From contig CAIPYC010000076.1 of assembly GCA_903869185.1 (NCBI GenBank), positions 1 to 35,934 of the forward strand: a stretch of DNA of 35,934 bases, written 5' to 3'. The notes beneath the pieces were generated by a model. The model was not told where the DNA came from and made no database searches. It saw only the letters and a list, made by a program, of their open reading frames with translations. Each line of letters begins with the position of its first letter. Position 1 is the first letter of the stretch. A program made the translations under genes and the position numbers. This document shows positions 17,343 through 35,349 of the stretch, in pieces. The DNA is from an uncultured cyanobacterium. Lineage in GTDB: Bacteria; Cyanobacteriota; Cyanobacteriia; Cyanobacteriales; Microcystaceae.

Positions 17343-19697
17343 TCATTGTCTTGCAAGGTACATTCGCATTTTCTCCTCGTAATGTTCTACTGGTTCACCA
17401 GTTACATCAACGTAGGCTCTATGGACAACAGAGCTGAATTTAAAAGGAGGATGATAATAGGGTACAACTGGTGACCCGGGATCAGCTCCAACAGCAATTC
17501 CAGCAGATAGCCCGAGATTTAGCGGTATCGTTACTGGAATATCTCCTTCGCCAATTATTGTACCATCTACTAGGAGCTTTACATTGCCAGGTGTACCTTT
17601 ACCTTGGGTAAAATCAGCTGGTCCTGTTGGCTCAAATTGCATACTAAAAAAATGACGACCGATAGGTAAAGATTGTGATGATTCAACTTTGAAGTGGCTT
17701 TCGGCAACATAGTTGTATGCATAGGTTAATTTCCCATCTTGAATATAGAGAACAAAACCACCATCATTGCCACCCACGCTCAAGAGAACACCATTGGCTC
17801 CACCATCCGGTAAGGTTGCTTCTACTGTGATCGAATGTGCACAATTCAATAATCTCGGAGATGCATTTGGAGAGACAACCTGTGTACCTGGATAATATGT
17901 ATAGCGTTTTCTGCTTGCTGCAATCTGTGGACGCTCTATAGCAAATCTCTGGGTGCTTTGGCTGTCAATAGGTAAAACCTTATATTTTCCTGCTTCTACA
18001 TACCACATACCGATCATCGCAATGAGTCGATCGCACTCAATTGCTGAGAGATTATTCGTCTCAGCATAATCCTCATTTATGTTGTAGAGTTCCCATCCAT
18101 GAGCATCGAGCTTAGTGAGAATATCGTAAGTAATAGTATCGCCAAACTTGCGCCCAGATTCGCTAAAGGATATGCCTGGCCAAGGACAGACGGCACGCCA
18201 ACCATCATGGTACAGTGAGCGATGACCAAACATCTCAAAGTATTGGGTTATATGTTTGTTGGCTGCGTTGGCATTATCAAAGGAATCAGCCAAACTAAAA
18301 CCTTCTATAGGCGATTGGGTAACTCCCCTAATAGATTTGGGTGGCTCAATTCCTAGAGCCTCCAAAACAGTTGGTACCATATCAATGGCATGGGCATATT
18401 GCTGACGAATTTCTCCCTTGGCTTGGATTCCTTTAGTCCATGTGACGATAAAAGGATCGCTTGTTCCACCTCGGTAGGTTTCTCGTTTCCATCGCTTAAA
18501 AGGAGTATTTCCGGCATGAGTCCAGCCCCATGGATAGTGATTAAAGAATTTTGGTCCACCAATATCCTCTATCGATGAGAGATTTTGTTCTAAGTTGTCA
18601 GGTATATTGTTAAAAAACTTATTCTCATTGACAGAACCGGTTGGACCTCCCTCAGAACTTGCTCCATTGTCCGAGATAACCATAATCAATGTGTTCTCAT
18701 ATTCACCGATATCCTTGAGAAATTTTATCAACTCACCAATATAGTGGTCAGTATGCTCCAGGAAGCCTGCAAAAACCTCCATCATCCTGGCGTAAAGCCT
18801 ACGTTCATCTGCTGAAAGTGATTCCCAATCTTGTACATCAGGATCATGTCGAGATAAGACGGTATTGGATGGAATGATTCCCATCTCTTTCTGTTTGGCA
18901 AATACTCTTTCTCTATAGGCATCCCACCCATCATCAAATTGTCCATTGTATTTATCTGCCCATTCTTTAGGGACATGATGCGGCGCATGCATCGCTCCTG
19001 TGCAAAAGTACATAAAGAATGGTTTATTGGGAGCTACCTGTTTGGAATCAGCAATCATTGCTCTAGCCTTTTCCACCAGATCCACTGTCAAATGATATCC
19101 TTCTTCGGGTGTTTGTTCAGGCTCAATTTGAGAGTTATCGCGTACCAATTCCGGGTAATATTGATGGGTGTCACCACCTAGGAAACCATAAAATCTTTCA
19201 AACCCGCGTCCTAATGGCCAACGATCATAAGGACCTGCGGCACTGGTCTGCTCGGCTGGGGTAAGATGCCATTTGCCAACGGCGTAGGTGTTATAACCGT
19301 GCTGGAGTAAGGTTTCAGATAAAAAACCATTTTCGAAGGGAATATAGCCATTGGAACCAGGATAGCCCGTTGAGCCTTCAGTAATGCAAGCTAAACCATT
19401 GGAATGGTGATTGCGCCCGGTCAACATACAGGAGCGTGAGGGAGAGCAAAGGGCGGTTGTGTGCATGTTATTGTAGCGCAGTCCATCTCCTGCCAATGCA
19501 TCCAGGTTTGGAGTTTTGATTGGGCTACCAAAGCATCCTAGTTGTCCAAATCCCGTATCATCTAGGACTATAAATAGAACATTGGCTGCCCCTTCTTTGG
19601 CTCGGTTTGGTTCTGGCCAGGCTGGAGTTGATACATCAGCTGTTCGACCGATTACTCCTGGAAAAGTTGTTCCGTTTTTGTATTCCTTGAGTGACAT
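17343..19697 (-). CDS. Cys-type arylsulfatase family protein
   Basis: A 784-residue sulfatase. The maturation motif is C-S-P-S-R with Cys84 inside TTALCSPSRSCMLTGRN, the residue converted to formylglycine. Metal-site residues are Asp46-Asp47 in VLDDTGFG and Asp343-Asn344 in ISDNGAS; Lys142 and His144 in GKWHL and His237 are also in place. The last 170 residues look beta-rich and jelly-roll-like. The size and layout resemble the long cytoplasmic arylsulfatases of mycobacteria. No signal peptide is visible, so it is probably cytoplasmic and would act on imported sulfate esters; the substrate is unknown. GAGAGG precedes the ATG by a normal spacing. The maturase gene lies 34 bases upstream. Confidence 0.93.
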   Translation of the reverse strand: MSLKEYKNGTTFPGVIGRTADVSTPAWPEPNRAKEGAANVLFIVLDDTGFGQLGCFGSPIKTPNLDALAGDGLRYNNMHTTALCSPSRSCMLTGRNHHSNGLACITEGSTGYPGSNGYIPFENGFLSETLLQHGYNTYAVGKWHLTPAEQTSAAGPYDRWPLGRGFERFYGFLGGDTHQYYPELVRDNSQIEPEQTPEEGYHLTVDLVEKARAMIADSKQVAPNKPFFMYFCTGAMHAPHHVPKEWADKYNGQFDDGWDAYRERVFAKQKEMGIIPSNTVLSRHDPDVQDWESLSADERRLYARMMEVFAGFLEHTDHYIGELIKFLKDIGEYENTLIMVISDNGASSEGGPTGSVNENKFFNNIPDNLEQNLSSIEDIGGPKFFNHYPWGWTHAGNTPFKRWKRETYRGGTSDPFIVTWTKGIQAKGEIRQQYAHAIDMVPTVLEALGIEPPKSIRGVTQSPIEGFSLADSFDNANAANKHITQYFEMFGHRSLYHDGWRAVCPWPGISFSESGRKFGDTITYDILTKLDAHGWELYNINEDYAETNNLSAIECDRLIAMIGMWYVEAGKYKVLPIDSQSTQRFAIERPQIAASRKRYTYYPGTQVVSPNASPRLLNCAHSITVEATLPDGGANGVLLSVGGNDGGFVLYIQDGKLTYAYNYVAESHFKVESSQSLPIGRHFFSMQFEPTGPADFTQGKGTPGNVKLLVDGTIIGEGDIPVTIPLNLGLSAGIAVGADPGSPVVPYYHPPFKFSSVVHRAYVDVTGEPVEHYEEKMRMYLARQ

Positions 19698-19731
19698 TGT
19701 TTAACCTCTCAGTATTGTATTGTTTCTTGAA

Positions 19732-20700
19732 TTAATCACGAATGATTAGACGAAAACCCAAATGACAGGTAGATGTATCTATTGCTTGGGCCATTCGTGC
19801 TGCTGGGCGATAACGCTGACAGTAACTAGGGGCACAAAGAAACGAACCACCCTTGATTACTTTGCGCGGAATTTTGATATCGGGCATGTTCGGATCAAAA
19901 CTCTGCTCAAGATTTCCCCCCTTTGGATTCTCCATGCTGCAACAGCCGGATTTTTTAATCAATTTGTGATCTTGATACCAATCTTGTGTCCATTCCCAGA
20001 CATTGCCGATCATGTCGTACAGACCATATCCGTTTGAAGAAAACGAGCCAACCGGAGAAGTTCTCTCGTATCCATCTTGACGGGTGTTTTCATAAGGAAA
20101 TTCACCTTGCCAGGTGTTGGCCATCATTTTGTCTTTTGGATATAGCTCATCACCCCAGGCAAACTCGGCATCCTCGAGACCACCTTTAGCTGCAAATTCC
20201 CATTCGGCCTCGCTAGGAATTTCTTTGCCAACCCAATGAGCATAAGATAGAACATCATTGTATGTTAGGTGAACTACTGGATGTTTCATTCTATCTTTGA
20301 TAGAACTACCGGGTCCTTCAGGGTGCCTCCAGTTTGCGCCTTGAATATAAGACCACCAGTTGTAATGGTCATTTCGATTCACCTTTTGTTGCGGTTTGAA
20401 AAAGACAGTCGAAGATGGTGCTAGTAACTCAGGCTTCGCACCAGGATAATCTTTGGGATCTGCAGGAAGCTCAGCAAAGGTAATATGTCCAGTTTCTTTG
20501 ACAAATTTTTGAAATTGGGCATTGGTTACCAAGAAGCGATCTATCCAGAATCCCTGAACCGTGACATGATGAACAGGAGCCTCTTCAGGATAATGATTAT
20601 TGGAGCCCATTCCAAACTTTCCCCCAATAATATGAATCATGTCCTTCTTGGAGGGAGGTTTTTGAGAACTCAGGTTGGGAGATTGATTTGCTACAGTCAT
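19732..20700 (-). CDS. Formylglycine-generating enzyme (sulfatase maturase, SUMF1/FGE-type)
   Basis: A 322-residue FGE-sulfatase domain protein. The two copper-binding active-site cysteines of FGE are present in GGSFLCAPSYCQRYRPAAR as Cys289 and Cys294. The FGE-specific SGCCSMENPKGG segment, IGNVWEWTQDWY and the terminal HLGFRLIIRD also match. Oxygen-dependent FGE oxidises the Cys of the CxPxR motif to formylglycine, so the adjacent sulfatase with CSPSR is its obvious client. A TTG five codons upstream (20713-20715) could also start the frame; I chose the ATG at 20698-20700, though neither has a good ribosome site. No signal peptide is visible. It heads the four-gene run down to 16339. Confidence 0.92.
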   Translation of the reverse strand: MTVANQSPNLSSQKPPSKKDMIHIIGGKFGMGSNNHYPEEAPVHHVTVQGFWIDRFLVTNAQFQKFVKETGHITFAELPADPKDYPGAKPELLAPSSTVFFKPQQKVNRNDHYNWWSYIQGANWRHPEGPGSSIKDRMKHPVVHLTYNDVLSYAHWVGKEIPSEAEWEFAAKGGLEDAEFAWGDELYPKDKMMANTWQGEFPYENTRQDGYERTSPVGSFSSNGYGLYDMIGNVWEWTQDWYQDHKLIKKSGCCSMENPKGGNLEQSFDPNMPDIKIPRKVIKGGSFLCAPSYCQRYRPAARMAQAIDTSTCHLGFRLIIRD

Positions 20701-20854
20701 ATCTATAGTTGACAATACAGGGACTCGCTTTTTTCTTATTTTATAAGGGTTTATTTAACTGTATTTAAAATTTAAAGATTTGTTTATTTACGTCATAAAA
20801 TGTAAGTAATTGTAACGTATCCGACACATCTACCAGGAGAGGGTTTCAGAATTT

Positions 20855-25684: not shown

Positions 25685-25729
25685 AAAACTTGTCTTTTTT
25701 CTCAGATACATGTTAGAATTCTAAAGTAT

Positions 25730-25803
<74 letters not shown>

Positions 25804-25880
25804 TTTTATCACTTTCCTTAATACTGCATTTATCTCCAGCTTCAAGAGCGCTCGGGAATTTTTTGTTTTAAGTTAAATGC

Positions 25881-25922
25881 TTTGCTTTAGGCTTTAGTAG
25901 TTAGCCCAAAGCAAATTTTTTT
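25881..25922 (+). terminator. Rho-independent terminator after tRNA-fMet
   Basis: TTTGCTTTAGGC (25881-25892) pairs with GCCCAAAGCAAA (25904-25915) over 12 positions with one A-C mismatch and an 11-base loop, followed by seven T residues. It stands directly against the hfq stop at 25923. In the opposite direction the stem would be followed only by non-T sequence, so it works best for plus-strand transcripts. Confidence 0.8.
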
Positions 25923-26141
25923 CTAATCAGGTTCTTGATAAATATATACAAGAGATTGGCGCCAGAGTATAATTTTTTTTTGTTGAGTTTTGAGAACTAG
26001 GCAAATACACTCACCATCTTGCCAAACAATATTACCGGAGAAGGTCTCGCCTGTGTTCATTTGTATTTCGACTAACCTGTTTTCCCGGATATATGATTGG
26101 ATATGTCTTGCGGTCGGTGAAGCAGAGTCAAATTCAGGCAT
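25923..26141 (-). CDS. hfq: RNA chaperone Hfq (cyanobacterial type)
   Basis: A 72-residue Sm-like protein. The Sm1 part (LVEIQMNTGETFSGNIVWQDGECICLVL) and the divergent Sm2 part ending SLVYIYQEP fit the short, divergent cyanobacterial Hfq rather than the enterobacterial form with its C-terminal tail. In Synechocystis this type is tied to type IV pilus function and does not bind sRNA in the classical way. It is transcribed alone on the minus strand, convergent with the tRNA gene. Confidence 0.93.
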   Translation of the reverse strand: MPEFDSASPTARHIQSYIRENRLVEIQMNTGETFSGNIVWQDGECICLVLKTQQKKIILWRQSLVYIYQEPD

Positions 26142-26367: not shown

Positions 26368-29352
26368 GTGATAAATATGGAAAAAAAGCAAACTCATTTA
26401 GCAATAGCCGCTACTTTTACAGCAGAGCCGATAGAACAATCGTTGAATTTCTGGATGCAAGAACTGGAGATAGAAACCAAAATTGAATTTGCTCCATATA
26501 ACCAAATATTTCAACAACTATTAGATCCAACCAGTCTCTTTGCCAATAATCAACAAGGAATTAATTTAGTTTTGGTAAGACTACAAGATTGGCAAGGGAC
26601 TCAAAATAAAGAGATTGATCGTAATATAGAAGATTTTAGTAATCTTATTAAAGATGCCGTTACTCGATATAAAACACCTTATATTGTAATTATTTGTCCT
26701 AGTTCACCAGAACAGCAATCACTTTTACATAATACCGAAGAAGCCCTGATAAAACAGCTCAATACTATAGCAGGACTATATTTAGTTACAAATGAAGATT
26801 TAGAGAATTATCCAGTAGAACATTATTATGATGAAACGAAAGATAGATTAGGTAATATACCCTATACTTCTCTATTTTTTACAGCTTTGGGAACAGCTAT
26901 AGCTAGAAAAATATACAGTTTAAAAACATCGCCACATAAGGTGATAGTCTTAGACTGTGATAATACTATATGGAAGGGTGTAGTAGGAGAAGAAGGAGTA
27001 GAAGGTATTGACATAACTCCGGAATATCGACAACTTCAAAAATTCATGATGAAACAGAAAGAAGCAGGAATGCTGCTGAGTTTGTGTAGTAAGAATACAG
27101 AATCAGATGTTATACAAGTTTTTCAAGAACGAGAAGATCTAGAATTAAAATTAGATGATTTAGTAAGTTGGAAAGTAAATTGGCAGCCCAAATCAGAAAA
27201 CCTGAAATGCTTGGCTACAGAATTAAATTTAGGATTAGACAGTTTTATTTTTATAGATGATAATCCAGTAGAATGTGCTGAAGTGCGCAGTAATATTCCA
27301 GAAGTTCTAACAATTAACTTACCAATAGAAAAAGATATTGTACATTTTCTTAAACATATTTGGGCATTTGATCATGTAAAGGTAACAGAAGAAGATCAAC
27401 AAAGAACAACATTGTATCAACAGAATGTACAACGTGAGAGATTTCAGAAAGAAACAACTGGATTAGAAGAATTCCTAGAAGGTCTAAAGTTAAATATAGA
27501 AATCAGTCAAATAAGGAAAGATCAGATAACTAGAGCTGCTCAATTAACTCAAAGAACTAATCAGTTTAATCTGACAACCAAACGTTATTCAGAGAAAGAA
27601 ATATCTGAAATTTTAATCGATCAACTTGAAGGTCGAGTCGTACGTGTAAGTGATCGTTTTGGCGATTACGGACTTGTAGGACTAATGCTATTCATGAAAG
27701 AATTAGACAGCCTTAAAATAGACACTTTTTTATTAAGTTGTCGAGTTTTGGGACGAGGCGTAGAATATCAAATGCTAAAAATTCTGGGAGAAATCGCTCA
27801 AGAAGCTAATTTATCTACTGTTAAAGCAACCTATATTCAAACGAAAAAAAACTTGCCAGCTCTCAATTTCCTGGAAAAATTTGGATCTCTTTATCAGAAA
27901 AAAACTGACGATGGGTCTGAATTTGTTTTTCCTACAGAATTTATCTTCAATCTAAGCTATACCTCAAGTTACATTCATAGCAATACGACTACTACAGAAG
28001 TTGTTGTGTCAACGCAGATACTCACTAAAACTCAAGAACAAAAACTAGATAAAAATATTCTCATCAATACAATTGTCAGCGAGCTGAGTCATGTTAATTC
28101 AATAGAAGAGCGTATTAAAAACAAGGTCAACTATAGCAACTTAAGAAACTTGACTACAAACTATACTGTTCCAGCTACTTTTACAGAAAGACAGCTTGTC
28201 AAAATATGGTCAGATATATTAAAGGTTGAGCCAATTGGTTTAGATGATAACTATTTTGATTTGGGTGGGACATCTCTAAAATCAGTAGAACTTATTGTAC
28301 AGATTGAAAAACAATTCTCAACCAAATTACCCTTGACAAGTTTGGTAACTGCGCCGACTATAAAACAGATGTCACAATTGCTAAATCAAACTGGTCAATT
28401 GTCTAACAATTCTTGTTTAGTATTGCTTAAAAAAGGAGATTCTTACCCTCCCTTATTTTTAATACATGATGGTAATGGAGAAACGATTCTCTATCGCAAC
28501 TTAGCTCTTAATCTTCATCCTAAGAGGACTGTATATGGATTACAACCTCTTGCAAGCTCGGATTTTCCCTTACTTCATACACGTATTGAAGATATGGCGG
28601 CTCATTATTTGAAACAAATAAAAACCATTCAACCAGAAGGTCCCTATCTTTTGGGAGGAATGTGTGCCGGAGGCGTTATTTCTTTTGAAATTGCTTTACA
28701 ACTTCAACAACAACAGCAGGAGATCGCTATGCTCGCTATAATTGATGCTGCCAATGTAGGAACACCTCTCAAAATATCAACTAAGACTATTTCCAAATTG
28801 GAGAGCATTTCCTCCTTTTTTAATGAACATAAAGACAATATAAAGATTAAGGAATCGATTCATATACTCAAATTAGTTTCAAAAAAAATCTTTAATTTCA
28901 CCCGCTATAATTTAAGTACATCACAAAGTAAACTTGATTCTATTAAATTAAAACTCTTTGATTACTGTCTGTCCAAAGAAATTACACCTCCTTCATTTTT
29001 AAAAGGATTAGACCTTATTAAGATATATGCTCTCGCAGAAAGAAAATATGTACCCACATCACAGCTTTTTGATGGCGATATTTTATTATTTTTAGGCACA
29101 AAAGGTGAGGGGTTAGACACGCCATTTACTGAATTTTTTGATGATCCTTTGTTGGGCTGGTCAAAAAGGGTAAATGGTGACATTAAACCAGTTAAAGTAC
29201 CAGGTGGACATTCTAGTAGTCTCCAAGAGCCCAACGTTGTTTTTATGGCACAGGAAATAGAAAAATATCTCCACTCTTTAATTGCTCAAGACATCAAGGT
29301 TAACGATCATGATGTCAGTCCCTCAAAGAGACCTATAATGCATTTTGAATAA
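26368..29352 (+). CDS. FkbH-type HAD-IIIC / acyl carrier protein / thioesterase fusion
   Basis: This 994-residue natural-product-type enzyme has four parts in order. Residues 1-185 are the SGNH-like N-terminal domain of FkbH proteins (ATFTAEPIEQSLNFW). Residues 190-345 are the HAD phosphatase core with Asp196 and Asp198 in VLDCDNTIW. Residues 365-510 are the FkbH C-terminal acyltransferase-like part (QRTNQFNLTTKRY, DRFGDYGLVG). Residues 603-672 are an acyl carrier protein with attachment site Ser636 in LGGTSLKS, and 685-970 a type I thioesterase whose elbow is GMCAG, with Cys766 in place of Ser, plus Asp793 and His948. FkbH enzymes take glyceryl from 1,3-bisphosphoglycerate to a carrier protein. 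The start could be GTG 26368 (used, with GAGAAAGA nine bases upstream) or ATG 26377. It is much more AT-rich than gltA. Confidence 0.9.
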   Translation: MINMEKKQTHLAIAATFTAEPIEQSLNFWMQELEIETKIEFAPYNQIFQQLLDPTSLFANNQQGINLVLVRLQDWQGTQNKEIDRNIEDFSNLIKDAVTRYKTPYIVIICPSSPEQQSLLHNTEEALIKQLNTIAGLYLVTNEDLENYPVEHYYDETKDRLGNIPYTSLFFTALGTAIARKIYSLKTSPHKVIVLDCDNTIWKGVVGEEGVEGIDITPEYRQLQKFMMKQKEAGMLLSLCSKNTESDVIQVFQEREDLELKLDDLVSWKVNWQPKSENLKCLATELNLGLDSFIFIDDNPVECAEVRSNIPEVLTINLPIEKDIVHFLKHIWAFDHVKVTEEDQQRTTLYQQNVQRERFQKETTGLEEFLEGLKLNIEISQIRKDQITRAAQLTQRTNQFNLTTKRYSEKEISEILIDQLEGRVVRVSDRFGDYGLVGLMLFMKELDSLKIDTFLLSCRVLGRGVEYQMLKILGEIAQEANLSTVKATYIQTKKNLPALNFLEKFGSLYQKKTDDGSEFVFPTEFIFNLSYTSSYIHSNTTTTEVVVSTQILTKTQEQKLDKNILINTIVSELSHVNSIEERIKNKVNYSNLRNLTTNYTVPATFTERQLVKIWSDILKVEPIGLDDNYFDLGGTSLKSVELIVQIEKQFSTKLPLTSLVTAPTIKQMSQLLNQTGQLSNNSCLVLLKKGDSYPPLFLIHDGNGETILYRNLALNLHPKRTVYGLQPLASSDFPLLHTRIEDMAAHYLKQIKTIQPEGPYLLGGMCAGGVISFEIALQLQQQQQEIAMLAIIDAANVGTPLKISTKTISKLESISSFFNEHKDNIKIKESIHILKLVSKKIFNFTRYNLSTSQSKLDSIKLKLFDYCLSKEITPPSFLKGLDLIKIYALAERKYVPTSQLFDGDILLFLGTKGEGLDTPFTEFFDDPLLGWSKRVNGDIKPVKVPGGHSSSLQEPNVVFMAQEIEKYLHSLIAQDIKVNDHDVSPSKRPIMHFE

Positions 29353-33882: not shown

Positions 33883-35349
33883 ATGTCTAAAATTTCGCAG
33901 TTCATCCCAGTTGCTGCCCTATTAAGTTTCGGGTTGATCTCCCCGGTTTATGGGCAACAGGTTTTTGCTCCCATTGTCAATCAACAAGGTTTCTCTGTAA
34001 ATTGTCTCAGCGTGGGAGCTGGCGGAGCCTGCACCAAATATAGCCAGTTGATCAGCAATGCTACCGGGCGTACTTTTATCCCTGTGGGCTATAACGACAA
34101 TTTTGGTTATTACACTCAAACAGCTCCAGACGGATTGCCAGCAGCCTATCATTATTTAACAGATGGTTACCCTGCCGGTATCTCGCCAATGCAATATAGC
34201 GGAGCCAATACCGTTAGACTTTGGACCGGACAGTGGGCTGGCAACCCCACACAGGCAGTAGGTACTGCTTTTCCTGCTGTTGGATATGATAGTCAGACTG
34301 CAGGCTATGCCCAATTGATCAAGGTATCTCTCCAAGATGGATTGGTGCCTATCTTGGCAATCGCCCAGACCAATAGCTCGGAATACTGGCCATCTGATCC
34401 CTCAGATCTAACCTTTCCGGTTATTCGCTCTTCTACTGGTGCTTGGTCAGTTCCAAGAGCCACGCTAAATGTAGTTAATGGCAATAAGAGTGGCACTATT
34501 GGGCTAAGTCAATCGGTCAGTCAATGGATTACGCCACAAATGTTGGCACTTTTAAAAGCCAATCCCAATGTCATTGTCAATATCTCAAACGAATGGGGAC
34601 AGCCTATGAGTACGGTTAATCCTCTCGATACTAAATACAATACACCGATAGAGCAATATTGGGCTAATTGCTACAAGTACGCTATTAATGTATTGCGCGC
34701 AGCAGGCATGACAAATGCCCTGATGGTTGATGCCACTGGAGGTGGTTCATATGCTGATGGAATCATCCAAGATGGAGTCAGCATAGAAAACTCAGATCCC
34801 CTGCATAAGGTGATATTTAGCGCGCATGCCTATAGTATTTACAGCGATAGCAAGGATTGCGGCATTTCCGGATTTACAAACTGTTCTACAGTAACTCCCA
34901 ATCCCTATCAATATGATCTTGCAACAGAACTCAATGCTCTAGCTAATGCCGGAGTCCCTGTGGATATCGGTGAATTTAGCAATGGTTATTTTAATGGCAA
35001 TAATTACAATTACAAAAATTTAGTTACCTTGGCTGACCAATATGGGATCGGATGGCAATATTGGCTTTATGGTAATCCAGGAGATCCATTCTACGAGCAG
35101 CCGTACCTTAACGGTGTAATGTATACCTTAGATGCCAATCCCAACTATCGAATTCAACCAAATGCGTTGATATCTTCTGTATCTACACCTTCTGTACCTA
35201 TGTTTGCTGGTGCGAGTACAGCATATCCTTCAGGAGACTCTGTGTCAAGCACCAATGTACCTTTTGAATTTTCACCTATTCAAGGTTTTATATTAGGTCT
35301 ACCTTGTTTCCTGGGTTTGAGATATCTTAAAAAGAAAAACAAAAGATAA
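33883..35349 (+). CDS. Secreted GH5-like glycoside hydrolase with PFE-CTERM anchor
   Basis: A 488-residue protein with a signal peptide (about residues 1-25, ending PVYGQQ). The catalytic domain has the GH5/clan A landmarks: acid/base Glu237 in NISNEWGQ, His315 and Tyr317 in SAHAYS, nucleophile Glu364 in VDIGEFSNG and Trp393 in WQYWLYG. Such enzymes cut beta-1,4-glucans, mannans or similar polymers; the substrate is open. The C terminus has a Ser/Thr-rich spacer, then VPFEFSP at 459-465, a hydrophobic stretch of about 15 residues and a basic tail (KKKNKR). This is the cyanobacterial PFE-CTERM sorting signal, so it is probably anchored at or processed onto the cell surface. It is followed after 12 bases by a transposase remnant. 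Confidence 0.88.
   Translation: MSKISQFIPVAALLSFGLISPVYGQQVFAPIVNQQGFSVNCLSVGAGGACTKYSQLISNATGRTFIPVGYNDNFGYYTQTAPDGLPAAYHYLTDGYPAGISPMQYSGANTVRLWTGQWAGNPTQAVGTAFPAVGYDSQTAGYAQLIKVSLQDGLVPILAIAQTNSSEYWPSDPSDLTFPVIRSSTGAWSVPRATLNVVNGNKSGTIGLSQSVSQWITPQMLALLKANPNVIVNISNEWGQPMSTVNPLDTKYNTPIEQYWANCYKYAINVLRAAGMTNALMVDATGGGSYADGIIQDGVSIENSDPLHKVIFSAHAYSIYSDSKDCGISGFTNCSTVTPNPYQYDLATELNALANAGVPVDIGEFSNGYFNGNNYNYKNLVTLADQYGIGWQYWLYGNPGDPFYEQPYLNGVMYTLDANPNYRIQPNALISSVSTPSVPMFAGASTAYPSGDSVSSTNVPFEFSPIQGFILGLPCFLGLRYLKKKNKR

Follow-up and report, generated by a model that had tools for sequence, protein, structure and literature searches.

FkbH domains load glyceryl taken from D-1,3-bisphosphoglycerate, as described in two reports (PMC8949500, PMC10143770). 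In the nonribosomal peptide synthetase (NRPS) and polyketide synthase (PKS) systems that use them for loading (AerB of suomilide and varlaxin, vioprolide, and cystomanamide), the FkbH domain precedes a carrier domain. Thioesterases with a Cys nucleophile are exemplified by ObiF1 and SulM, in which the acid of the triad is described as moved from the place after strand 6 (PMC11298585). The thioesterase of Pks13 is described as releasing its product on polyols, with trehalose preferred (PMC9210659). CmaE, SyrC, and CouN7 are described as moving a carrier-bound acyl group either between carriers or from a carrier onto a free-standing substrate (PMC8748450). Glyceryl and acetyl substituents on a bacterial polysaccharide are described for gellan (PMC4392319, PMC4432689).

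We analyzed a 35,934-nucleotide stretch of DNA from an uncultured cyanobacterium (the window) that encodes an FkbH-acyl carrier protein (ACP)-thioesterase protein. Like the NRPS and PKS loading modules, it has an FkbH domain and then a carrier domain, but what comes after the carrier is a Cys thioesterase instead of a condensation or ketosynthase domain, and relatives of the protein are partnered with a glycosyltransferase. Its thioesterase shares the PF00975 fold and the Cys nucleophile with ObiF1, SulM, and AB3403; these three are NRPS termination modules, unlike the window protein. AB3403 (4zxh) was the best sequence match in the PDB (E 4.3e-36, over the ACP-thioesterase part). The Pks13 thioesterase has the same fold (Z 23.5) and is a type I thioesterase described as transferring an acyl group from carrier to sugar, but its acyl group is mycolate and its carrier is part of a PKS. 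To our knowledge, the Pks13 system includes no family-2 glycosyltransferase (GT2) partner. CmaE, SyrC, and CouN7, which we liken to the window family from their descriptions, are separate proteins of secondary-metabolite pathways. Gellan carries L-glycerate, whereas FkbH chemistry should yield D-glyceryl.

A preliminary description of the window had proposed a single 994-residue protein joining the three units, and the profiles agreed: TIGR01686 scored 314.3 bits against a curated cutoff of 146.65, PF00975 scored 76.2 bits against 26.4, and PF00550 was also above its cutoff. Asp196, Asp198, Ser636, and Cys766 in the elbow GMCAG were all found at the positions it had named. The reading frame (Table 1) has a GTG start, with an ATG 3 codons in, and no internal stops. 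In the predicted model, the N-terminal and HAD domains together resemble BF1531 (3slr; Z 30.5, 332 residues aligned, rmsd 3.6, model residues 4 to 339), and the thioesterase has an alpha/beta-hydrolase fold that both Foldseek and VIA matched to thioesterases. The predicted Cys-His-Asp triad is intact. In the FkbH part, Cys458 is, by analogy with OzmB, a candidate for the Cys that carries glyceryl. The description had also stated that the window contains no PKS or NRPS gene; no such domain was found elsewhere among the ORFs scanned with Pfam. The scan covered 26 of the 35 that are 100 amino acids or longer, the FkbH gene among them, and left out nine that are short or overlap others as well as one that runs off the end.

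Table 1. Features of the FkbH-ACP-Cys-thioesterase gene in window coordinates
Feature	Position	Strand	Basis
FkbH-ACP-Cys-thioesterase gene, 994 aa	26368..29352	+	ORF, Pfam/TIGR profiles, full-length relatives
N-terminal domain preceding HAD domain, residues 9-185	26392..26922	+	Structural match that includes the HAD domain
FkbH domain, residues 190-508	26935..27891	+	TIGR01686
Asp196 / Asp198, HAD motif DCDNT	26953..26961	+	Both present in 24/24 members
Cys458 in SCRVLGRG	27739..27741	+	24/24 members
Acyl carrier domain, residues 609-672	28192..28383	+	PF00550, above cutoff
Phosphopantetheine site Ser636	28273-28275	+	Ser in 24/24 members
Thioesterase domain, residues 695-953	28450..29226	+	PF00975, fold matches
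Asn703	28474..28476	+	Asp in all 23 other members compared
Cys766, elbow nucleophile of GMCAGG	28663..28665	+	24/24 members
Asp793, triad acid	28744..28746	+	24/24 members; directly after strand 786-792 (DSSP of model)
Ile884	29017..29019	+	Arg in all 23 other members compared
His948 of triad (GGHSS)	29209..29211	+	24/24 members

The stand-alone FkbH-ACP-Cys-thioesterase that the description had recognized is a real architecture, present in several phyla. We compared 24 full-length members (the window protein, one from an Aquisphaera plasmid, and 22 from loci found by genome scan), which are 35 to 52% identical and come from four phyla: cyanobacteria, Planctomycetota, Pseudomonadota, and Myxococcota. 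The homologues are not always in large PKS/NRPS clusters. All 24 have C766, which rules out a strain-specific elbow Cys, and the elbow is also Cys in all 18 related enzymes whose loaders are of another kind or unknown; the L018 elbow is Cys-type. In quick trees made without bootstrap, where some branches are long and some sequences have an unusual composition, the window FkbH domain fell inside a stand-alone clade (SH-aLRT 95) and its thioesterase inside a Cys clade with the elbow G(M/L)C(A)GG (SH-aLRT 96; here the window sequence is among those of unusual composition). Fourteen loci repeating the same genes had been dropped before the ORF set was made, and six duplicates were dropped from the FkbH tree.

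Four thioesterase residues, D701, D703, R884, and D917, are common to FkbH-loaded and otherwise loaded Cys-thioesterases but rare in 26 other thioesterases (0, 1, 1, and 2 of 26, respectively; one of the two patterns used for scanning already included D701 and D/N703 in part). Their occurrence with different loaders fits the expectation of a common acceptor.

Across the genomes searched, the family seems to be rare and its distribution patchy. A first whole-protein scan of genome contigs found no relative. With scoring confined to the top two or three candidates in each genome, 386 cyanobacterial genomes gave no full-length match besides the window, and 246 Planctomycetota genomes gave one, the search's own centre. 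A search of 36 genomes from the order to which L063 belongs gave three full-length matches, two of them new to the search's centre, and one partial relative, L116.

The description had suggested that the protein could act by itself, as a self-contained pathway, and here the neighbors of its homologues point the other way. One particular GT2 lies within the fetched stretch at 19 of 23 loci (including L064, the source of the GT2 query), and at 13 loci it is the immediate neighbor or, in one case, is fused to the thioesterase. The fusion, at L091, is a single FkbH-ACP-thioesterase-GT2 protein. At least two homologues lie in exopolysaccharide clusters, on the Aquisphaera plasmid and in Leptolyngbya sp. 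FACHB-36. Remnants of the gene in G001 and G002, two genomes of the same genus as the window's, also have surroundings of this kind, with a flippase next to the G001 remnant and a GT4 next to the G002 remnant. Because most homologues are near this specific GT2 and at least two are in such clusters, a sugar acceptor is more likely. Neighbor genes were called as longest ORFs, so that where G+C content is high some of the calls are false or run two genes together. Exactly one such GT2 was present in 16 of the 17 genomes examined, in 14 of these at the place matching the fetched locus. The four loci with no GT2 in the fetched stretch are L062 and L090, whose stretches stop right after the FkbH-ACP-thioesterase gene; L077, which has the GT2 elsewhere in its genome; and L070, in whose whole genome none was found.

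The pairing extends to similar Cys-thioesterases with other acyl loaders, which had the GT2 nearby at 10 of 19 loci (6 of 12 from the genome scan and 4 of 7 from the whole-genome search); at L092 a single protein has the order formyltransferase-A-ACP-thioesterase-GT2. More distant thioesterases, taken as a control, had the GT2 at 0 of 10 loci, 8 of the 10 being near-copies from Nostocales. In cyanobacterial genomes with the GT2, a hexapeptide acetyltransferase part was fused to it or adjacent in 9 of 11, a count biased toward fusions by its query, the GT2-hexapeptide fusion of the window's genome. A sequence search of the GT2 against the PDB gave no match at E 1e-5.

We propose, from gene context and at about even confidence, that the protein is a carrier-protein-based glycan acyltransferase that relays glyceryl from 1,3-bisphosphoglycerate by way of its ACP and Cys766 to a surface-glycan sugar. 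If known FkbH chemistry holds, the FkbH part would take glyceryl from the D-isomer, remove the phosphate, and load the ACP; the thioesterase, with its conserved Cys-His-Asp, would accept the glyceryl on Cys766. The gene pairing and the fusion suggest that it would then go to a hydroxyl or amine of the sugar added by the partner GT2, and that this sugar would be part of an exopolysaccharide or another surface glycan of that sort. Cys-thioesterases with other loaders may place other acyl groups via the same route. For the window protein, the best reading of the predicted activity is still that it releases or transfers a glyceryl unit, and the role of the family is probably the decoration of surface sugars rather than the making of an antibiotic-like compound.

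The window copy itself is, judged by gene content, an orphan of this loader/Cys-thioesterase/GT2 system: neither the GT2 nor any other glycan-assembly gene lies beside it in the window, and the GT2 of its genome is on contig C194, fused to a hexapeptide acetyltransferase-like domain. The window protein as query matched its own genome on C76 (the window gene only), C128 (which carries an FkbH-containing NRPS), C6, and C141. It may be that the orphan is decaying or already nonfunctional, a doubtful reading in our estimate, though it carries more weight with us than any other alternative. In two genomes of the same genus, G001 and G002, we found only fragments with stops and deletions; the G002 remnant is at the syntenic place before citrate synthase. 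The window protein departs from the family at 9 of 133 otherwise invariant columns, and 7 of the 9 are among the 42 thioesterase columns; of the four signature residues, D701 and D917 are kept and N703 and I884 are changed. At 33.4%, the G+C content of the gene is the lowest of the 21 window genes measured. A degenerate relative, L116/L132, which retains the Cys but has lost the triad Asp and His, likewise has no GT2 nearby. Against decay stand 994 stop-free codons with the triad, the ACP Ser, and the HAD Asp intact, and a member of the phosphopantetheinyl transferase family in the genome. Nine departing columns is high but within the range of the other members, 0 to 10 (10 in L088 and L091; 7 in L080, which is 56% identical to its closest relative). 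The window protein has L909, G910, and S951 in common with the G002 remnant, which dates some of these changes to before the loss. The pooled dN of 0.28 against the remnants, with dS about 2.0, also speaks against decay, but dS is almost saturated and a shared past accounts for most of the ratio, and we do not use it as proof. The changed thioesterase residues suggest either an altered acceptor or a weakening function.

Other readings concern the reaction. The GT2 may instead glycosylate the glyceryl, on the carrier or after its release, with the thioesterase releasing or transferring a glycosyl-glycerate, and the product would be either a small glycoside or a building block for glycans. The GT2 pairing and the fusions fit this equally well, so that gene context cannot tell acyl transfer to a sugar from glycosylation of the acyl group, and glyceryl and the A-KR products have hydroxyls that could accept a sugar. 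We nevertheless consider it unlikely: plain A-domain loaders (substrates not predicted) would yield amino acids with no obvious hydroxyl, and the acetyltransferase-like domain that accompanies the GT2, albeit counted with the fusion-biased query, fits sugar acylation better. Simple hydrolysis of glyceryl-ACP, which would make the protein a bypass to free D-glycerate, is a common reaction of the thioesterase fold and would suit a gene with no adjoining partner, but it leaves the GT2 pairing, the fusions, and the exchange of loaders unexplained, and we rate it improbable. The Cys had been taken as a hint of beta-lactone formation. ObiF1 and SulM, in the account of PMC11298585, do form four-membered rings with a Cys nucleophile, glyceryl has a beta-hydroxyl, and a second conserved acid, D917, a candidate for an acid at position II, follows the next strand and is kept in 22 of the 23 other members. 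The hint is nonetheless weak, and we think this or any other intramolecular release very improbable, since D793 is at the usual triad place in 24 of 24 members and the gene context is that of glycans. In ObiF1 and SulM, according to PMC11298585, the acid has moved; AB3403 combines the Cys with an acid in the usual place, after strand 6, as in our model of the window protein. Our first idea had been a collapsed NRPS, in which a cyanopeptolin- or aeruginosin-like cluster lost what lay between carrier domains, so that its FkbH loading module was joined to its terminal thioesterase: FkbH-carrier parts of long assembly-line ORFs, the top matches outside the genome, are 44 to 50% identical to ours in related cyanobacteria and in its own genome, and G007 has FkbH, sulfotransferase, and NRPS domains in one ORF. 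Both domain trees contradict it, placing the window FkbH apart from assembly-line FkbH domains, including that of its own genome, and the thioesterase away from the Ser-type thioesterases of its relatives, and of all the alternatives we give this one the least credence.

More broadly, and tentatively, at somewhat short of even confidence, the loader-carrier-Cys-thioesterase proteins, single-module and NRPS-like, and one GT2 family may form a unit with exchangeable loaders, an undescribed class of glycan acylation spread over at least four phyla. The loaders would be FkbH (glyceryl), A (amino acids), A-KR (hydroxy acids), formyl-A, and C-type, and the chemistry of assembly lines would thereby put acyl groups on surface polysaccharides. 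A search of the open-access literature on FkbH, HAD-IIIC, and glyceroyl with glycans gave no description of such a system among the matches listed. Acyl groups such as glyceryl alter the charge and gelling of bacterial polysaccharides. If the glycan-acylation reading is true, glyceryl would be installed via a thioester carrier from an intermediate of glycolysis and the Calvin cycle rather than from a coenzyme A donor, and the L091 and L092 fusions would be single-polypeptide objects for testing it. It would also account for a group of small "NRPS-like" genes, which may be classed in genome mining as natural-product fragments, and the window would offer a case of such a gene fading in a small genome.

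The open reading frame (ORF) encodes FkbH, carrier (ACP) and thioesterase (TE) domains, and these matches together with the elbow motif confirm the Cys-elbow FkbH-ACP-TE protein of the preliminary description. Its start codon is GTG, and the true start may be an ATG three codons further on. An asparaginase II gene also lies 5' of the gene, and a citrate synthase gene follows after a 25-base gap. At 33.4%, the G+C content of the gene was the minimum among the 21 window genes measured (the rest, 36.2 to 45.3%). The window is the entire contig C76 of a 2.76-Mb genome (G000) in 205 contigs.

Positions of the FkbH-ACP-TE gene, its domains and other features of the window
Feature	Position	Strand	Remarks
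FkbH-ACP-TE ORF	26368-29352	+	994 codons
FkbH domain	residues 190-508		TIGR01686
Carrier domain	residues 609-672		PF00550
Thioesterase domain	residues 695-953		PF00975; elbow GMCAGG at Cys766
tRNA-Met	25729-25804		5' of the FkbH-ACP-TE gene
Short ORF	~25800-26100	-	In the gap 5' of the gene; cyanobacterial Hfq-like (by eye, six-frame translation)
Sulfatase and formylglycine-generating-enzyme genes	17343-20715	-	The two genes are neighbors
GH5 cellulase-like protein	33883-35349	+	PFE-CTERM sorting tail; similar-looking ORF at the same place in G002, a same-genus genome

The protein belongs to a family found in several phyla. A plasmid protein of Aquisphaera giovannonii (Planctomycetota) aligned with 97% of the window query at 42% identity and has GMCAGG. 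A genome-collection scan with a two-row thioesterase alignment gave 44 loci, and at 22 of them a single ORF aligned to the window protein all the way from its FkbH domain to its thioesterase; the hosts, several of them metagenome assembled, were Leptolyngbya, Elainella, other cyanobacteria, Planctomycetota, Pseudomonadota and Myxococcota. The window protein was 35 to 52% identical to the 23 other members (the 22 plus Aquisphaera), and D196, D198, C458, S636, C766, D793 and H948 were identical in all 24 full-length members. Because the elbow lies in neither scan pattern (FL[IV]HDG[ND]G and LHTRIEDM), the invariant Cys is not a product of the search; a family trait (24/24), it is not the strain-specific change that had been considered.

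The gene 3' of the FkbH-ACP-TE protein was repeatedly a family-2 glycosyltransferase (GT2) of one kind. With the copy at L064:11026-12033 as the query, matches of at least 45% identity within the fetched stretch were present in 19 of the 23 family loci, the query source counted. The GT2 was the next gene downstream in ten loci (L061, L063, L064, L066, L073, L082, L084, L085, L087 and L088), the adjacent upstream gene in two (L068 and L058, the latter with the GT2 in two pieces), and 1 to 9 kb off in L067, L071, L074, L075, L080 and L083. At L091 it was fused, a single 1360-aa ORF containing carrier (662-725), thioesterase (750-1013) and GT2 (1030-1272). The partner was not found in the fetched stretches of L062 and L090, where both contigs end right after the gene, nor anywhere in the genome of L070; it was absent from the fetched stretch of L077 and present elsewhere in that genome, possibly 25 kb off. 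Whole-genome searches of 17 family genomes gave exactly one GT2 match at E 1e-40 in 16, and 14 of these matches coincide with the fetched locus when the coordinate ranges are compared. In the same scan, none of ten distant-thioesterase loci (L093 to L099, L101, L103 and L104) had the partner, a control that is effectively smaller than ten because eight are near-copies of one Nostocales gene. The betaproteobacterial copy at L102 (314-2767 and 2776-3711) runs through several reading frames of its contig and is adjoined by the GT2; its breaks may reflect sequencing error or a pseudogene.

Related Cys-thioesterases had other loaders (acyl-loading domains before the ACP): C-ACP-TE in L065, L069 and L072, A-ACP-TE in L076, partial C-A-ACP-TE in L078, A-KR-ACP-TE in L081 and L031 (genome G053), and formyltransferase-A-ACP-TE in L086 and L092, with the GT2 fused to the thioesterase in L092. 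Of 12 such loci that the genome scan supplied, 6 had the same GT2 nearby (L069, L078, L081, L092, L100 and L102, the last being the frame-broken FkbH member), and L086 was adjoined by a more distant GT2 (28% identity). Among loci from the whole-genome searches it was near four of seven (L031, L133, L136 and L138) and not nearby in L134, L135 and L137. D701, D703, R884 and D917, of which D701 and D/N703 are partly built into the scan patterns, were kept in 23, 23, 23 and 22 of 23 FkbH-type members. The corresponding counts were 16, 17, 17 and 16 among the 18 enzymes whose loader is different or unknown, 5, 6, 6 and 5 for the subset of 7 that the pattern scan had not supplied, and 0, 1, 1 and 2 among 26 other thioesterases. 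Since Cys-thioesterases with differing loaders have these residues in common, their sequences point to a common acceptor. A Streptomyces sp. NBC_00441 plasmid (L060, 3304-10049) encodes an FkbH-carrier protein, a separate Cys-type thioesterase (GWCVGG) and a separate carrier, along with glycosyltransferases and nucleotide-sugar genes, which may together form a comparable system divided over several proteins.

In a tree of 50 FkbH domains, that of the window fell into a 27-row group (SH-aLRT 95) of 25 stand-alone proteins, a Streptomyces FkbH-carrier protein and the frame-broken member; FkbH domains of longer assembly-line ORFs, including G000's own, fell outside. In a tree of 70 thioesterases, that of the window fell into a 44-row group (SH-aLRT 96; 43 Cys-type, 1 unread), within which the tree did not resolve the branching; the 26 outside had Ser (23), Cys (2; L013 and L018) or His (1). 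Given these placements, an origin of the window protein from nonribosomal peptide synthetases (NRPSs) was rejected. G000 has a two-protein NRPS on contig C128 (L024, 482-15453; FkbH-T-C-A-T and C-A-T-TE), accompanied by an ABC transporter, a Wzz-like protein and a glycosyltransferase; His aligns at the elbow position of its thioesterase. Among the FkbH domains nearest to the stand-alone family is that of a 1418-aa FkbH and carrier protein (L028, 5371-9624; G053), the last 700 residues of which had no Pfam match at the threshold used.

The same-genus comparison comprised two other genomes, G002 and G001, the latter a draft (430 contigs, 90% completeness) from which an intact copy could be missing. 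Both contain broken remnants of the gene, so all three genomes formerly shared a gene that encoded both FkbH and thioesterase. The G001 remnant comprises fragments, broken by stops, of residues 1-46 and 26-181, directly joined to 747-819 with GMCAGG intact; the ORF with the thioesterase piece runs on into sequence resembling the 2OG-Fe(II) oxygenase gene of the Leptolyngbya sp. FACHB-36 locus (L061), and a flippase gene adjoins. What remains in G002 is residues 379-449 joined to 895-930 and 939-968. Next comes a GT4 glycosyltransferase gene, and behind it, as in the window, are citrate synthase, threonine synthase, cysteinyl-tRNA synthetase and cellulase-like genes (identified by position, gene order and reading of translations; the GT4 alone was profile scanned). 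Thus, in both genomes glycan genes stand beside leftovers of the FkbH-TE gene.

The window copy has an intact catalytic triad, and G000 has a phosphopantetheinyl transferase family member. The 23 other members are identical to one another at 133 columns; the copy differs from them at 9, and 7 of the 9 changes, including D703N and R884I, are among the 42 such columns in the thioesterase (hypergeometric, 0.004). In leave-one-out comparisons, other members differed at 0 to 10 columns; L088 and L091 (10 each) are more distant, but L080 had 7 at a similar distance, and the total of 9 is therefore within the family range. The changes at 909, 910 and 951 are common to the G002 remnant. Because of the thioesterase changes, and because G000's GT2, fused to a hexapeptide part, is on another contig (C194), we read the window copy as an orphan with a putatively altered or weakening acceptor site, not a typical member. 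A 25th member, found by whole-protein query in G450 (Elainella order; L116/L132, 8167-11139, minus strand), keeps the elbow Cys with D793 changed to Asn and H948 to Phe; judged by these residues its thioesterase is degenerate. It had no GT2 neighbor within 13.6 kb and is perhaps another broken or repurposed copy.

When 194 cyanobacterial genomes were searched with G000's GT2-hexapeptide fusion, 11 had the GT2 part at E 1e-70, and in 9 of the 11 (G000 counted) the hexapeptide part was fused or adjacent, an upper estimate, as a fusion query favors fusions. A Cys-thioesterase ORF was 3.4 kb from the GT2 in G160; neither partner was seen near the GT2 in G189. The GT2 is therefore often paired with some acyl-transfer partner. 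The best likenesses were below curated cutoffs for both parts: serine O-acetyltransferase/EpsC and colanic-acid acetyltransferases for the hexapeptide part, and rhamnosyltransferase, mycofactocin and hormogonium polysaccharide glycosyltransferases for the GT2. Neighbors of the Aquisphaera gene include glycosyltransferases, dTDP-sugar enzymes, a polysaccharide tyrosine autokinase, an exosortase and ABC transporter genes. The FACHB-36 order is hexapeptide transferase, FkbH-ACP-TE, GT2, a protein without a family match, 2OG oxygenase, GT4, three GT2, flippase and GT4. Among 103 scanned neighbors of noncyanobacterial members were GT2 (18, partners counted), RmlD (7), GDP-mannose dehydratase (6) and ABC-2 exporter families (5). 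The 64 scanned neighbors of cyanobacterial members included 8 GT2 (partners counted), but recurrent families there also include cytochrome b, pantothenate kinase and RuvX, so not every member sits in a glycan cluster.

The domains, the conserved catalytic residues, the GT2 pairing, the fusions and the exchange of loaders are all directly observed; the chemistry proposed is as follows. FkbH would put D-glyceryl on the carrier, by analogy with NRPS FkbH domains, for which such loading is described (PMC8949500). The Cys-thioesterase would accept the glyceryl as an acyl-enzyme and pass it on to the sugar on which the GT2 acts. Cys nucleophiles are present in ObiF1, SulM and AB3403 (PMC11298585) and are in themselves nothing unusual. 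For a type I thioesterase that moves an acyl chain from its carrier to a sugar, Pks13 is a precedent (PMC9210659). The structure predicted for the window protein (mean pLDDT, 81.4; pTM, 0.64) had the Pks13 thioesterase among its nearest folds; residues 4-339 matched BF1531 (Z, 30.5), and EntF and AB3403 were matched over their carrier and thioesterase at a Z of 25. None of the component parts is of a new kind, but no description of them combined with exchangeable loaders was found in the portions of the literature searched. A self-contained small-molecule pathway had been proposed earlier; given the GT2 in 19 of 23 loci and the fusions, glycan acylation beside a glycosyltransferase is likelier, and the family likely serves as the glycan-acylating partner of a glycosyltransferase.
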